Virus record (IMG/VR): IMGVR_UViG_3300027852_000193
Location: 1 to 20,845 of that record
From: a virus
Direction: 5' to 3' (one strand)
Length of the DNA: 20,845 nucleotides
Part shown: positions 2,902-20,837 of the stretch, one piece after another
Position numbering within the stretch: position 1 is the stretch's first letter
Layout: every line of letters begins with the position of its first letter
The notes under the pieces: generated by a model
Seen by the model: the letters and a program-made list of their open reading frames with translations, nothing else
Databases searched by the model: none
What the model was told of the DNA's origin: nothing
Position numbers and translations under genes: made by a program

Positions 2902-3086
2902 GGTTTTCCTCCTTGTGCTTGGTCAGGCAGTTCAGGATATTTACGCTGTAGTGCAGCAGTATCGCTGAACTTTTCTTCGGTATAAATATCAGGGTACGAG
3001 CAAACTTGCCCCTCTGCTAATTCAACAAAGTGCCGCCTATCAATGACGTAAAGCCCCGGAACAGTAATATCTTTTGGGCTAGCCAT
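2898..3086 (-). CDS. Small hypothetical protein
   Basis: A 62-residue protein starting MASPKDITVPGLYVIDRRHF. The start codon shares its A with the stop of the upstream nuclease gene (TAATG), and its own stop overlaps the lipoprotein start (ATGA), so it sits in a coupled run. It is mixed charged/polar with no membrane segment or cysteine-pair motif; a single Cys lies near residue 29. I do not recognise a family. The coupling on both sides supports it being a real gene. Confidence 0.6.
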   Translation of the reverse strand: MASPKDITVPGLYVIDRRHFVELAEGQVCSYPDIYTEEKFSDTAALQRKYPELPDQAQGGKP

Positions 3087-3703
3087 TACGCAGTACCTTC
3101 TTTTGCTTTAGCCAGCCCTGCTCGGCGGTTGACAGGTAGGATTAAGGGGGCGCTAACAGCATCCTGAAAGGTCGCGCCTCGCCTCATCCGTTCGTGTAAC
3201 GTGTTTCGCCCAAAACCCAATCGCTTACTCCACCCGAAGATGTTATCGGTGATCCCGTTATGGGTGTATGTTGCTCGCTTGCTTGCTACAACCTTCGTTT
3301 CCAATGCTTGCTCCACAGTCATGCCATGAGCGTCAATTCTAGCCCTTAGCGTTGCCGGTTTAATCCCTTTATCGGCAGCCCACTCGGAAACGGTTTTTCT
3401 TTCTCCGCAATACTCTAAATAACGGTTAGATCGCCGGTTGTTCGCTTGCTGTTTTGGAGTCGCCCATACGCAATTTTCAGGCGTATAGTCGCCATCATTA
3501 TCCAGCCGCTCTATAGACATTCCCGGAGATGGCTTATCTCCCATATCTGTATAAAACTGAGAAAAACTGGCTAGCCACTCATCACACACTTTAATACCAC
3601 GGCCTCCGTATGATGGGTATTTTTTATTCGTCTTACAGTAACACCTCCCCTTCATGTGTGACCATGACTTGTACTCACGCTTATGAAATCTCGGCTCAAA
3701 CAT
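3086..3703 (-). CDS. HNH-type (homing-like) endonuclease with two HTH-like repeats
   Basis: I prefer the ATG at 3703 (205 residues) because AAGGG lies 7 nt upstream and the protein then begins about 15 residues before the conserved block, as in relatives. An upstream ATG at 3766 would add 21 residues. Residues 13-40 (SWSHMKGRC, then YPSYGGRGIKVCDEW) and 63-90 (SIERLDNDGDYTPENCVWAT, then QQANNRRSN) match the phage HNH/AP2-like nuclease family, where the D-N-D...NC.WAT segment forms the metal-finger core. Two HTH-like repeats follow: TVSEWAADKGIKPATLRARI (about 104-123) and a second at 154-175 (FGWSKRLGFGRNTLHERM). Such genes are often free-standing mobile nucleases inserted between phage genes, which fits its place inside the tail cassette. 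Target unknown. Confidence 0.8.
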   Translation of the reverse strand: MFEPRFHKREYKSWSHMKGRCYCKTNKKYPSYGGRGIKVCDEWLASFSQFYTDMGDKPSPGMSIERLDNDGDYTPENCVWATPKQQANNRRSNRYLEYCGERKTVSEWAADKGIKPATLRARIDAHGMTVEQALETKVVASKRATYTHNGITDNIFGWSKRLGFGRNTLHERMRRGATFQDAVSAPLILPVNRRAGLAKAKEGTA

Positions 3704-3769
3704 AACCCAACCCTTATTTAAAAGAGGCTTTATTATACCGCCTCCGTGGACTATTACGCCAGTCATAAT

Positions 3770-4891
3770 TTAAGCAATCCCATTGTCCACAATAACCCAT
3801 AGGTCAGTGCTAATCAGGTTAGCTCTAGCCGTAGCCGCAGCACCTCCGCCTGTGTATGTGCTGCTTCCAAAGTTTACGCTTAGGCTATCTACAGGGTTTT
3901 GTGCGTCCCATGCAATAAGCGTGGCATCGTAACGTGCTGTTGTTATTGACGAACTGGATAGGAAGCTGGTGAAATCCATCACGGCTTCAATATCCCATCC
4001 ATCTATTGCTACATCTGTCAGGGCAGTGTTCTCAAATGTCCTACTCATACTTGTAACGAGCGGTGTATCAAAGCTGGACACATCAAGGGTTGTTAGCGAA
4101 ATACAGCCACGGAAGGTCTGATAAAGACTGGTTAGTGATGTAGTTACAAAGTGTGATAAATCCAGTGTTACTAGGGCATAGCAGTTAGTGAACGTCTGAT
4201 AAAAACTGGTAGAAAGCGTGGTGTCGAAACTAGAAATATCTAGGGCAGCTAACGCATGGCAGTCCGTGAACATATTAGCAAAGCCAGTACCAGTCACCGA
4301 TGACGTATCAAACCCTGATAAGTCCAGCGCGGTTAAGTTAGACATGCCTTTAAACATGCTCGTCATACTTGTGACTAGCGGAGTCGTCATGCCGACCAAA
4401 TCAAGGGTTGATGCGCCGACAGCGCCGAGCATCCAGGACATATCAGTGACTTGAGATGTATCGCAATTGCCTGCCGTGAGTACAGTCAGGTTAGAGCATC
4501 CACGGAAGGCTCCATTAAAACTGAGCCATCCAACCTTGCCTAGATTTAGAACCTTCTTAACTTTGAGCTTATCCCCGGCATTATTAAAACGTAGGTTAGG
4601 GAAGGTGCCGGTGATCGTGATCGTATGGTCGCCAGCAAGTGCGTACTCATGCGCTAGGTCGGCATCGTTGTACGCGGTGATTGTGCTGGTTTCACCATCA
4701 CCCCAAGCTATCGTTGCGTTAAATGTGCCTACGTTCTGACAAGGGATTGTGACTGTCTCAGCCGCTGCTGTAGTAGCCATGACCATGACAAAGGCTTCTG
4801 TTACAGCCGCCACTCCGCCAAACAGTCCATCACTAGCGCCCCTTGAGGCACTACGGCTTGCGCTTCTACTGGCTGATCTGGATGACGACAT
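3770..4891 (-). CDS. BspA-type leucine-rich-repeat protein, putative tail fibre/receptor-binding protein
   Basis: 373 residues in four parts. Residues 4-20 are a tetrapeptide repeat (RSAS/RGAS). Residues ~44-95 resemble a PKD-like fold, with WGDGE at 63-67 and HEYALAGDHTITITG at 81-95. Residues ~110-310 hold about seven 20-25-residue repeats with the pattern L..LDLS.FDTS.VTSM..MF..C, the signature of BspA/DUF285 surface leucine-rich repeats. A C-terminal cap (YDATLIAWDAQ at 321-331, then ARANLISTDLWVIVDNG) is typical of BspA proteins. BspA-like repeats are known as adhesive domains of bacterial and protist surface proteins. Here the gene lies between the internal virion proteins and other beta-rich appendage genes, so a host-binding tail protein is the best reading. 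The ATG has only a weak ribosome binding site. Confidence 0.8.
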   Translation of the reverse strand: MSSSRSASRSASRSASRGASDGLFGGVAAVTEAFVMVMATTAAAETVTIPCQNVGTFNATIAWGDGETSTITAYNDADLAHEYALAGDHTITITGTFPNLRFNNAGDKLKVKKVLNLGKVGWLSFNGAFRGCSNLTVLTAGNCDTSQVTDMSWMLGAVGASTLDLVGMTTPLVTSMTSMFKGMSNLTALDLSGFDTSSVTGTGFANMFTDCHALAALDISSFDTTLSTSFYQTFTNCYALVTLDLSHFVTTSLTSLYQTFRGCISLTTLDVSSFDTPLVTSMSRTFENTALTDVAIDGWDIEAVMDFTSFLSSSSITTARYDATLIAWDAQNPVDSLSVNFGSSTYTGGGAAATARANLISTDLWVIVDNGIA

Positions 4892-18387: not shown

Positions 18388-18691
18388 CTTCCCCGCTGTT
18401 GGTAGCAGACTTTCGGGCTTTCTTCGGTTTATCAATGAGAGTTACCATTAATTTGCGGTTTTTGTGGTCTGCAATGGCATTGTACCCACTCATTTTTTCG
18501 TTTATTGCCTTCACAATTAGCCGATCTAGCTGGACGCTGTTCAAATTAGCCCTGAAATCCAGGGTGAAGCCGGTCTTGTCTATGTCAATGATGTTGACTG
18601 GTTGAGCTTGTCGATCAAATAAGCGCCCCACATACCATAAACCGTAAGAATGAGAATTAAGTATTGCTAAGTCATGCTGTGGTTTCTTCAT
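18377..18691 (-). CDS. Hypothetical protein following the terminase gene
   Basis: 104 residues. The middle (PVNIIDIDKTGFTLDFRANL, then LDRLIVKAINEKMSGYNAIA) suggests a small mixed alpha/beta fold. The C-terminus is basic (KPKKARKSATNSGED). Its ATG overlaps the large terminase stop as ATGA, and AGGGG lies 6 nt upstream. I do not recognise a family. Coupling to terL and the good ribosome binding site support it as a real gene. Confidence 0.65.
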   Translation of the reverse strand: MKKPQHDLAILNSHSYGLWYVGRLFDRQAQPVNIIDIDKTGFTLDFRANLNSVQLDRLIVKAINEKMSGYNAIADHKNRKLMVTLIDKPKKARKSATNSGEDVP

Positions 18692-20166
18692 CTTCTGCCC
18701 CTGCTCAGTGGATTAAATGCCTTTGGTTGTGTTGGTTTGCGTGTCGGTCTTGCCCCCACGATAGCCTCGCGGCCTTCGCCCTCGCCCTGTAGTCCGTACT
18801 CTAAAGCCTCAACAGGGTGTGAGTACTCATTCTTGTCTGGCTCATCTGTGTAGCGCTCAGCGGTTGTCTGCACTCGCCGATAACAGAACCCACCTTGAAG
18901 CCCTTTACGAACCATCTTGCATTTAGGGAGAATGATTAGTCTGGGCTTCCCATCCATACACATTTCTTTAAGCGGAACCTCCACAGCAGCCCTACGGATT
19001 GAAGGCTTGTTGCTAGATGTTGGGAAACAGGGAATACCGGCAGCACGAATGATCTTGAATGGCGTATCGTCTGAACCCTGGCCCTTGTTATCACCGGAAG
19101 GATCACCCCACCCCTGATAATTATAGTCAGGATAATTACCATCGAGGTATCGCTTAAGGTTAGGCGCAAAGTCTACGGCGCTTAAATCATCAGCCAGAAA
19201 TTCATCAAAGGCTATCCACCGGCCTAATGCGCCTTGTTGCATCATTATACAAGCAGGAGTGCGCCCGAAATCAAAGCCAAGCACGATCTTTTTGGACTTA
19301 TCGGGGGCAAATTCCATATCGACACAATGAACTGAGTCAACATAGCGCGGGTGAACAGGCTTACCATCACTAACAAAGCCGTATTCATTAGCCAGATTAA
19401 CTTTGATCCAGTCGTCAGACTTACCCTGCATGCCCCGCGAGTAGTAACCTTTAGGGAGGTTCTTGAGGTTTTCAGCGTCAGGATTAACTAGCCACCTCTC
19501 ACCACTCTCGACCACACCCCCCGCTTGTCGATGAAACGCCCACCCTTCCGGCTTATCTTCCTCGGCTAACTTGTAGTACCAGTGATCCTCGTCAGGGGCA
19601 TTCGTATCGCCCAACATGCCATGCCATGAACACTGGACACCATCCTTGTTTGATGGATAGCGGCCATGCCTGAGATCAAGCATATCAACGACTGATTTAG
19701 GTATCTCTTTAACCTCATTCAGCCAGACACCAGAGACTTGAAGCCCTCGCGCTTTCTTAACGTGGTCAGGACGGTCAAAGGCTATAAACAATATCTCCGA
19801 TCTAACCTTAGTCCCATCACTAAGCGCAAATTCTATCTTTTGCGTTGGCGGTTCCTTGCTGCCTTGCTTGAATGGCCCCAGGTCTTCATGGACTTCCAGC
19901 CAGTCCTTAATCGTCGTAGAAAATAGCTCAGAGTAGGTATTGCGCACCGCAACCCATCGAGAGAGGCGCACATTATGGTTTTTATTCTGCTTATCCTTGA
20001 CTGGCTCCTGCTCACATATCAGGTCGAGGATTTTAAGAATAGTCTGGATTGTCTTGCCGGAGCCGAGCGGCCCCATGATTAGCGATACCGGCGCTCTACA
20101 GTCGGCATATTTTTGAAGTACCTGACCAGGTGGCTGGACGTTGTACTCAATAACTTCAGCTTCCAT
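18688..20166 (-). CDS. terL: Terminase large subunit (packaging ATPase and nuclease)
   Basis: 492 residues, the motor that pumps DNA through the portal and cuts concatemers. The Walker A motif GPLGSGKT is at 32-39. A VRNTY..L..TTIK.W segment follows at about 73-90. The Walker B-like strand GVWLNEVKEIP is at 146-156, with E151 as candidate catalytic Glu. The C-terminal RNase H-like nuclease has GFDFGRTPA (D299), WGDPSGDNKG (D355) and a closing NEYSHPVEALEYGL at 446-459. The pattern resembles podovirus terminases of the BPP-1/BcepC6B kind. The start overlaps terS by 11 nt and has no clear ribosome binding site, so translation is probably coupled to terS. Confidence 0.95.
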   Translation of the reverse strand: MEAEVIEYNVQPPGQVLQKYADCRAPVSLIMGPLGSGKTIQTILKILDLICEQEPVKDKQNKNHNVRLSRWVAVRNTYSELFSTTIKDWLEVHEDLGPFKQGSKEPPTQKIEFALSDGTKVRSEILFIAFDRPDHVKKARGLQVSGVWLNEVKEIPKSVVDMLDLRHGRYPSNKDGVQCSWHGMLGDTNAPDEDHWYYKLAEEDKPEGWAFHRQAGGVVESGERWLVNPDAENLKNLPKGYYSRGMQGKSDDWIKVNLANEYGFVSDGKPVHPRYVDSVHCVDMEFAPDKSKKIVLGFDFGRTPACIMMQQGALGRWIAFDEFLADDLSAVDFAPNLKRYLDGNYPDYNYQGWGDPSGDNKGQGSDDTPFKIIRAAGIPCFPTSSNKPSIRRAAVEVPLKEMCMDGKPRLIILPKCKMVRKGLQGGFCYRRVQTTAERYTDEPDKNEYSHPVEALEYGLQGEGEGREAIVGARPTRKPTQPKAFNPLSRGRR

Positions 20167-20473
20167 CGAAGTTTTTACGATTTACTTGTACGGTTTTTTC
20201 TTCGACTGATAGATGGCCTGTAACCTCTGTAGCCTTGAGCTTAGGGGTAACGTATTGGCCGATCTTATCCCATGCTTCAACACACGCTTTATGGGTCATT
20301 AATCTAACGGCGTTGGTTTCTTCCTCGTCTTCATCAATAACCTCAGCAATGCTGGACATTTTTACCGCATGAGCAGCACTTCTCATAATAGGATCGAAAT
20401 CATCGCCGTACATCTTCTTGAGTCGATTCTGTAGATACTGCTTGTTCTTATTAGCTACCCCTGCTCTTGACAT
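20156..20473 (-). CDS. terS: Terminase small subunit
   Basis: 105 residues, on the short side for this family. The opening GVANKNKQYLQNRLKKMYGD followed by DFDPIMRSAAHAV and the helical HKACVEAWDKIGQYVTPKLKA stretch resemble small terminase subunits encoded just before this class of terL. These proteins form a ring, recognise the packaging site and regulate the large subunit. The gene overlaps terL by 11 nt. Upstream is a 121-nt non-coding gap with a -10/-35 pair and a row of 20-bp-spaced dyads; such a place is where cos/pac recognition sites sit in several phages. No separate DNA-binding helix-turn-helix is obvious in the sequence. Confidence 0.75.
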   Translation of the reverse strand: MSRAGVANKNKQYLQNRLKKMYGDDFDPIMRSAAHAVKMSSIAEVIDEDEEETNAVRLMTHKACVEAWDKIGQYVTPKLKATEVTGHLSVEEKTVQVNRKNFDGS

Positions 20474-20499
20474 TACTTTGACCCTATCAATTTGATTGC

Positions 20500-20529
20500 A
20501 TTATACTAAACTGGTTACTCTTTAACCAA
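20500..20529 (-). promoter_or_regulatory. Candidate promoter for the packaging/structural operon
   Basis: On the minus strand, TTGGTT (20529-20524) and a perfect TATAAT (20505-20500) are separated by 18 nt. A dyad TGGTTA/TAACCA overlaps the -35 box and spacer. It faces terS, whose ATG is 27 nt beyond the -10 box. This is the only sizeable non-coding region ahead of the terminase genes. Confidence 0.55.
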
Positions 20530-20587
20530 TTGTGACGTTTTGTGTCAGTTCTGGTTGATTTTTGACCGCTTGTGACAATTTTTGTCA
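20513..20587. repeat. Four 15-bp dyad elements at exact 20-bp spacing upstream of terS
   Basis: On the plus strand the elements occupy 20513-20527 (GGTTA-5-TAACC, extendable to 6-bp arms), 20533-20547 (TGAC-7-GTCA), 20553-20567 (GGTT-7-GACC, imperfect) and 20573-20587 (TGACAA-3-TTGTCA, perfect). They alternate between a GGTT...ACC type and a TGAC...GTCA type. The second and fourth also share the 19-nt pattern TTGTGAC...TGTCAG, 40 bp apart. Centres fall on one helix face. A weaker match (GCTTA...TAACC, 20593-20608) may be a fifth. Confidence 0.75.
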
Positions 20588-20594
20588 GCGTAGC

Positions 20595-20837
20595 TTATAC
20601 CCATAACCTGTTTAGCTTTGCATGTAGGTCATGGTCGATTGTTTTACGTTGCCTTGGCTTGTATTGATACCTGGGTTTCATCATAGCGAAGTATACCGCC
20701 ATGTCAGGAGGTAGGTCAGCTCTAGCCCTTATGCGGCTTTGGAGTGTTGGAACAGGAATATCTTTAATCTCTGCCAGTTGCTTAACCGTCAAAAGATCGC
20801 ATTCCCACGGCCATAATGTGCTGATATGTCTAGCCAT
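20595..20837 (-). CDS. Small helix-turn-helix-like protein upstream of terS
   Basis: 80 residues. After MARHISTLWPWECD, residues 16-38 (LTVKQLAEIKDIPVPTLQSR and following) have the helix-turn-helix pattern: a T/S cap, Q-L-A, a turn at the DIP, then a recognition-helix-like VPTLQSRIRA. A basic tail follows (KPRYQYKPRQRKT). The helix-turn-helix closely parallels the repeats in the HNH-type protein at 3086-3703 (TVSEWAADKGIKPATLRARI). The gene ends 6 nt from the outermost of the phased dyads, so a DNA-binding partner of those sites is possible. It could be a regulator or a terminase accessory factor. Little upstream sequence is left before the window edge. Confidence 0.65.
   Translation of the reverse strand: MARHISTLWPWECDLLTVKQLAEIKDIPVPTLQSRIRARADLPPDMAVYFAMMKPRYQYKPRQRKTIDHDLHAKLNRLWV

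Follow-up and report, generated by a model that had tools for sequence, protein, structure and literature searches.

A phased array of dyads upstream of the terminase genes

Does the series of inverted repeats located directly upstream of the terminase genes of this virus represent a site where DNA packaging starts, or an operator of the late promoter? We analyzed this question in the window, i.e., the entire 20,845-bp viral contig (IMG/VR record IMGVR_UViG_3300027852_000193, positions 1 to 20,845), and in its relatives. The structural genes of the window are encoded on the minus strand and include terL, an overlapping gene of 105 aa, a gap of 121 bp and an ORF of 80 aa. The gap (20474-20594), which lies 5' of the terS-like gene, contains four 15-bp dyads and a TATAAT sequence. 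The dyads are centered on positions 20520, 20540, 20560 and 20580, a spacing of exactly 20 bp. Dyad 1 (20511-20529, with a core at 20513-20527) reads TTGGTTA-AAGAG-TAACCAG on the minus strand; it is followed by dyads 2 (20533-20547; TGACGTTTTGTGTCA), 3 (20553-20567; GGTTGATTTTTGACC) and 4 (20573-20587; TGACAATTTTTGTCA). Dyads 1 and 3 present GGTT/(A/G)ACC arms (GGTT at 20513 and 20553, AACC at 20524 and GACC at 20564 in the window sequence), and dyads 2 and 4 constitute a second type with TGAC/GTCA arms. The positions given for these last tetramers in the preliminary description (TGAC at 20533, 20563 and 20573; GTCA at 20544 and 20584) are accurate, and we agree that dyad 3 is an imperfect member of the first type and only a partial palindrome.

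The regularity of the array was quantified by scoring the core arms, defined as positions 4-7 from each dyad center. Pairing reaches 4/4, 4/4, 3/4 and 4/4 at the four successive centers, and the sum of 15/16 is the highest period-20 score found anywhere in the 20.8-kb window. The preliminary description had proposed to compare the periodic dyads to shuffled sequences: not one of 20,000 dinucleotide-preserving shuffles of the gap scored 15 at period 20, and when any period from 15 to 30 was allowed, the best of 3,000 shuffles scored 13. These results confirm the presence of four dyads with an exact 20-bp phasing. A fifth dyad, suspected near 20600, presents just two core pairs and is not supported. 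The dyads were also thought to occupy one face of the DNA; their spacing is indeed regular, but they share a face only approximately, since 20 bp corresponds to 1.9 turns at 10.5 bp per turn.

The two 40-bp units of the array form a 38-nt direct repeat (spacing of 40, 76% identity) and the self-identity of the array peaks at lags of 10, 20, 30 and 40. The dyad cores are evenly separated by 5 bp and the dyad middles are A/T-rich. Based on a crude measure of A-tracts, the array is among the most A-tract-phased stretches of the window; a further strongly phased stretch was observed at 18434-18549, in the small genes that follow terL.

Genes and promoter around the array

The gene terL (18688-20166, minus strand) encodes a terminase large subunit of 492 aa (phrog_2, E = 2.6e-15; Pfam Terminase_6N) that shares 51% identity with the TerL of BcepC6B. 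It is overlapped by the 105-aa gene (20156-20473, minus strand; start codon at 20473), whose product presents a basic N-terminus and helices and belongs to a family of 36 aligned sequences that all occupy the same genomic place. No convincing match to the 105-aa protein itself was found in Pfam and PHROG, and a sequence search of the PDB returned no significant match. Its predicted fold is a helical bundle (pLDDT 78) with weak structural matches, none of them informative; the TerS fold was not among the matches found, which we do not count against a TerS identity. In relatives of TerL, the slot directly before terL is filled by small-terminase proteins of the Terminase_2 or GP3_package families, and the 105-aa protein is therefore considered a candidate small terminase, based on its position and on this displacement. 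The ORF of 80 aa (20595-20837, minus strand) ends at the array and contains an HTH-like stretch (HTH_17, E = 0.035, below the Pfam cut-off); a search for relatives of its product found none. Both proteins had been put forward as candidates for binding the array. The 105-aa protein keeps this place as the terS candidate, and the 80-aa ORF is a separate gene upstream of the array.

The TATAAT sequence (20502-20507, minus strand) is a candidate -10 of a terS/late promoter without a good -35, and it is omitted by a consensus promoter scan because of this weak -35. As for all promoters mentioned here, this call is based on sequence alone. On the coding strand, the array is followed about 5 bp further by TATAAT and then by the start of terS at 20473. 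Two other proteins of the late cluster were noted on the minus strand: a protein of 373 aa (3770-4891) with a SRSASRSASRSASRGAS start and LDLSxFDTSxVT-type repeats, which is BspA/DUF285-like by eye, and a protein of 226 aa (3086-3766) with a GDYTPENCVWATPKQQANNRR stretch, which is HNH/homing-endonuclease-like by eye and has no Pfam match.

This arrangement is also what could be expected if the dyads formed an operator with several sites for a protein that regulates the late promoter. The simplest candidate in the window would be the 80-aa HTH-like protein, acting as an activator of the Alt/Ltr kind: its ORF lies directly upstream, the four repeats end just before a TATAAT with a poor -35, and the dyad centers would be located at about -25, -45, -65 and -85 from the inferred start. 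The preliminary description had named an operator as the main alternative, and this explanation is still live, as four repeats combined with a small regulator gene reproduce the Alt/Ltr layout. Considering the window alone, the operator is as good as the packaging reading.

Dyads in related phages

Many relatives of TerL and of the 105-aa protein were found in IMG/VR. One large group of these relatives presents 19-bp dyads (TTGRTYA-N5-TRAYCAA) before terS. Across 17 distinct sequences, most contain two dyads and the remainder one clear dyad, and the spacing is exactly 20 bp wherever two dyads occur. The 20-bp period, whose conservation in relatives the preliminary description had asked to verify, is therefore conserved. 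Variants in length were also observed: three relatives (L202, L059 and L062) are exactly 20 bp shorter, and in another (L206), exactly 10 bp are missing from the stretch that separates TATAAT from the remaining dyad. Across the scanned records, tandem pairs of dyads were found only before terS, with few single matches elsewhere. When searched in the window with at most one mismatch, the consensus of the relatives yielded a single match at 20511-20529, which is dyad 1 (one mismatch). This suggests that the dyads of the window, or at least those of the GGTT type, are the same kind of site as those of its relatives. The TGAC/GTCA type has so far been seen in the window only, and a scan for arrays of four dyads with strict complementarity found none in the relatives, which makes the four dyads unique to the window.

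The sites of the relatives belong to the top few percent of their own records for A-tract phasing, as determined with a crude measure. The A/T-rich dyad centers and the strong phasing of the window's array raise the question of whether the periodicity simply reflects phased A-tracts, or arose by chance, without a site-specific binder. We give this explanation hardly any credence: the shuffled sequences did not reproduce the regularity, the arms of dyad 1 match a consensus derived independently from relatives, and length variants of exactly 20 and 10 bp exist.

The position of the dyads relative to TATAAT differs between the window and its relatives. In the relatives, TATAAT is followed on its 3' side by the dyad, which covers the expected start site, and in the window TATAAT is on the opposite side of the dyads. 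The distance from the start of TATAAT to the start of the dyad is 5 nt in the relatives, with two exceptions (once 6 and once 15). In addition, dyads in relatives are confined to loci whose terS is preceded by a promoter-like TATAAT of its own, and the clades without a terS promoter are dyad-less. This near-fixed association with TATAAT is consistent with an operator. However, the dyads of the relatives are on the wrong side for an activator, although a repressor could bind there, and no gene comparable to the 80-aa ORF is adjacent in the relatives.

Other matches were considered. A second 19-bp dyad, TTGGTCAAATATTGATCAA, located 4.6 kb into the late operon, was judged coding-driven because it lies within the coding sequence of MSWSNIDQ and is also present in phages without terS dyads. 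It is perfect over codons 2-8 of the gene after portal in three genomes (L083, L084 and L085, corresponding to G003, G001 and G004), and in TTGGTCAGAAATTAACCAA, a variant from another lineage, the dyad is kept though the amino acids differ. The TTGGTCAAATATTGATCAA/TTGGTCAGAAATTAACCAA dyad is thus probably coding-driven and possibly a second binding site. No such dyad array was seen by eye before terS in BcepC6B, Ss1, VA-RY-3 and MEP301, whose TerS genes differ. Finally, a scan of genome contigs identified one relative of TerS in a Porticoccaceae single-cell assembly (L239), where dyads are absent and the element described below is recognizable by eye.

A conserved element next to terS

We searched for motifs in the 80 nt preceding terS in 37 non-redundant relatives, leaving the window out. 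A gapless 24-nt motif,.ATCAA....TTAG...TAAA.TA (ATCAA-N4-TTAG-N3-TAAA), was identified in most of the TerS family, with an LLR of 227 compared to 66-83 in shuffled sets. Because relatedness among loci inflates conservation, the motif was also compared to other stretches of the same loci, which yielded an LLR of 208 for the element and 91-116 for these stretches. On either strand of the window, the motif matches best at AATCAAATTGATAGGGTCAAAGTA (20474-20497, minus strand), directly before terS, with 13.6 bits compared to 9.7 for the runner-up. No convincing copy of the element was found in one sub-clade (L053, L022, L035, L148, L160 and L166) and in L168. In two phages without TTGRTYA dyads (L097 and L155), the conserved element is immediately preceded by another kind of dyad, around GTTATAAC, and this dyad is perhaps an alternative type of site.

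The element starts 21-60 nt before the ATG and also occurs at loci where terS is located within an operon and has no promoter. It is therefore unlikely to be a promoter or a ribosome-binding signal, and constitutes a candidate for the core of a packaging site. The distance between the start of the proximal dyad and the start of the element is 22 in most relatives (L019, L096, L098, L192 and L193), 32-33 in three others (L105, L106 and L109) and 32 in the window. These steps are of about one helical turn, with few independent lineages behind the comparison. The distance from dyad to ATG varies freely (-48 to -64 in relatives, -56 in the window).

Association of the sites with the small-terminase type

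The dyads and the element accompany the 105-aa type of TerS. Among relatives of TerL with other small terminases, the 1.5 kb around terL contained no dyads. The element was absent too, save for a single match in L003, located 1 kb upstream and unexplained. Since both are absent under related TerL proteins paired with another TerS, the site follows the type of small terminase and not TerL. One phage (G006) is informative in this regard: it has its replication genes and an XRE regulator (92% identity) in common with dyad-bearing phages, and its TerS is divergent. G006 has no dyads; TATAAT is kept and the element has diverged. The XRE regulator of the relatives was rejected as the binder of the dyads, as it is also present in this dyad-less phage, and no regulator-like gene family confined to the dyad genomes was found in a set of records of which several are fragments. 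The preliminary description had proposed that the small terminase recognizes the array. The spacing is conserved and the sites are associated with the type of TerS, not with TerL or XRE, as would be expected if a small terminase recognized them; both observations agree with this proposal.

The same comparison bears on the operator, which becomes weaker once the relatives are considered: we saw no regulator gene whose distribution follows that of the dyads, and an operator would account neither for the second element nor for the helical steps that separate it from the dyads. We consider the operator a credible, if somewhat improbable, explanation of the array. The operator and packaging readings could also both be true, should TerS control its own promoter.

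Repeats of about 20 bp in AT-rich DNA generally resemble iterons, and the array could in principle be a set of replication-origin iterons that happen to precede terS. The length of the repeats and the AT-rich DNA agree with this explanation. However, the replication genes of the relatives are located far from the site, and it is the type of TerS, not the DnaD-like gene, that the dyads accompany, which leaves iterons very improbable.

Genome ends

Four relatives of about 30-33 kb represent one circular map opened at different places. Such a circularly permuted map of contigs fits headful packaging, and it could also result from assembly. The number of contigs starting 13-46 bp before terS is 4 of 48 and no contig end is common. 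A genome end near terS is only suggested by these starts; contig ends were not decisive as genome termini, as they mark no terminus. The contigs of two different strains (L207 and L212) begin at an identical position, 13 bp before terS, which is possibly a physical end or an assembly break.

A candidate packaging-initiation region

We estimate that there is about an even chance that the gap constitutes a packaging-initiation region recognized by TerS and overlapping the late promoter, with a layout similar to the pac site of SPP1, in what is probably a headful phage. Under this scenario, the 105-aa protein would act as an oligomeric small terminase and bind the dyads, 20 bp apart and roughly on one face of A-tract-bent DNA, the oligomer contacting one dyad about every two turns. 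The element 5' of terS would anchor TerS in a fixed helical register, TerS would recruit TerL to the site and packaging would then start. Bound TerS may also block or tune its own promoter. We infer all three of these activities: TerS as the binder, cleavage at the site and autoregulation. Several observations count against a packaging region: the near-fixed spacing of TATAAT and dyads and the dyad-less promoterless clades, which both fit an operator, as well as the absence of the TGAC/GTCA type from relatives and the different side of TATAAT in the window.

Tentatively, these sites may even represent a new architecture of packaging site in a large and mostly uncultured group of marine phages, although we would not yet favor this broader claim. 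It would combine phased dyads and a terS-proximal core with a family of short TerS proteins without a known fold match, and the length of the array would change in steps of one or two turns. How TerS selects viral DNA is an unsettled question: in pac phages, TerS binds DNA weakly and for the most part non-specifically in vitro, and there are several competing models that are incompatible with each other (PMC9611059). If confirmed, the region would offer a direct view of how a ring-forming small terminase recognizes specific DNA. Sites with one, two and four dyads would form a natural series, at exact helical steps and in association with TerS variants, on which the wrapping ("nucleosome") model could be tested, and the site would mark the start of packaging, and thus the start of the genome, across widespread uncultured phages.

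Comparison with known systems

The regulators of TP901-1 and phi13 provide the closest precedent for an operator. At the late promoter, Alt of TP901-1 recognizes four imperfect direct repeats between -76 and -32; regulators of the Ltr type are small and basic, and their genes lie just upstream of that promoter (PMC13123087). The window resembles this organization, with four repeats just upstream of a putative late promoter and a candidate regulator gene directly upstream of them. In contrast, the dyads of the relatives lie downstream of the -10, without an adjacent regulator, and follow the TerS type instead.

The preliminary description had likened the position of the array to the cosB site of lambda. 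The two resemble each other in the presence of repeated sites by terS, bound by TerS in lambda, where site spacing and DNA bends matter (PMC4856287). However, cosB (R3-I1-R2-R1) contains three R sites with an IHF-induced bend between R3 and R2 (PMC4856287), whereas the window presents four even dyads without an IHF gap: the 5 bp between cores and the 20-bp period leave no room for IHF. Nor was evidence of cohesive ends found here. With its uniform spacing and a circularly permuted map, the locus is a poor fit to cosB and is closer to the pac site of SPP1.

The pac site of SPP1 covers direct repeats as well as late promoters and the beginning of terS (gene 1) (PMC4737164, PMC6316719), and the TerS of SF6/SPP1 has been proposed to select bent DNA (PMC4737164). 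The likeness is one of layout: repeats precede and extend into terS, the late promoters present a canonical -10 and an atypical -35 (PMC4737164, PMC6316719), and the A-tract phasing of the array is what the bent-DNA model expects (PMC4737164). The dyads, TATAAT and the start of terS all lie within 121 bp in the window and are similarly arranged in relatives, where the promoter is likewise predicted from sequence. The boxA/B/C direct repeats published for SPP1/SF6 are not described as a uniform 20-bp dyad array, and the present sites differ from them by their uniform dyads at exactly 20 bp, their helical-step length variants, a separate conserved element by terS and a shorter TerS, for which no relation to gp1 of SPP1/SF6 was detected. 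The region would thus work like pac or cosB, and we file it as neither: not as cosB because its layout has no IHF gap, and not as SPP1 pac because the correspondence is one of layout only.
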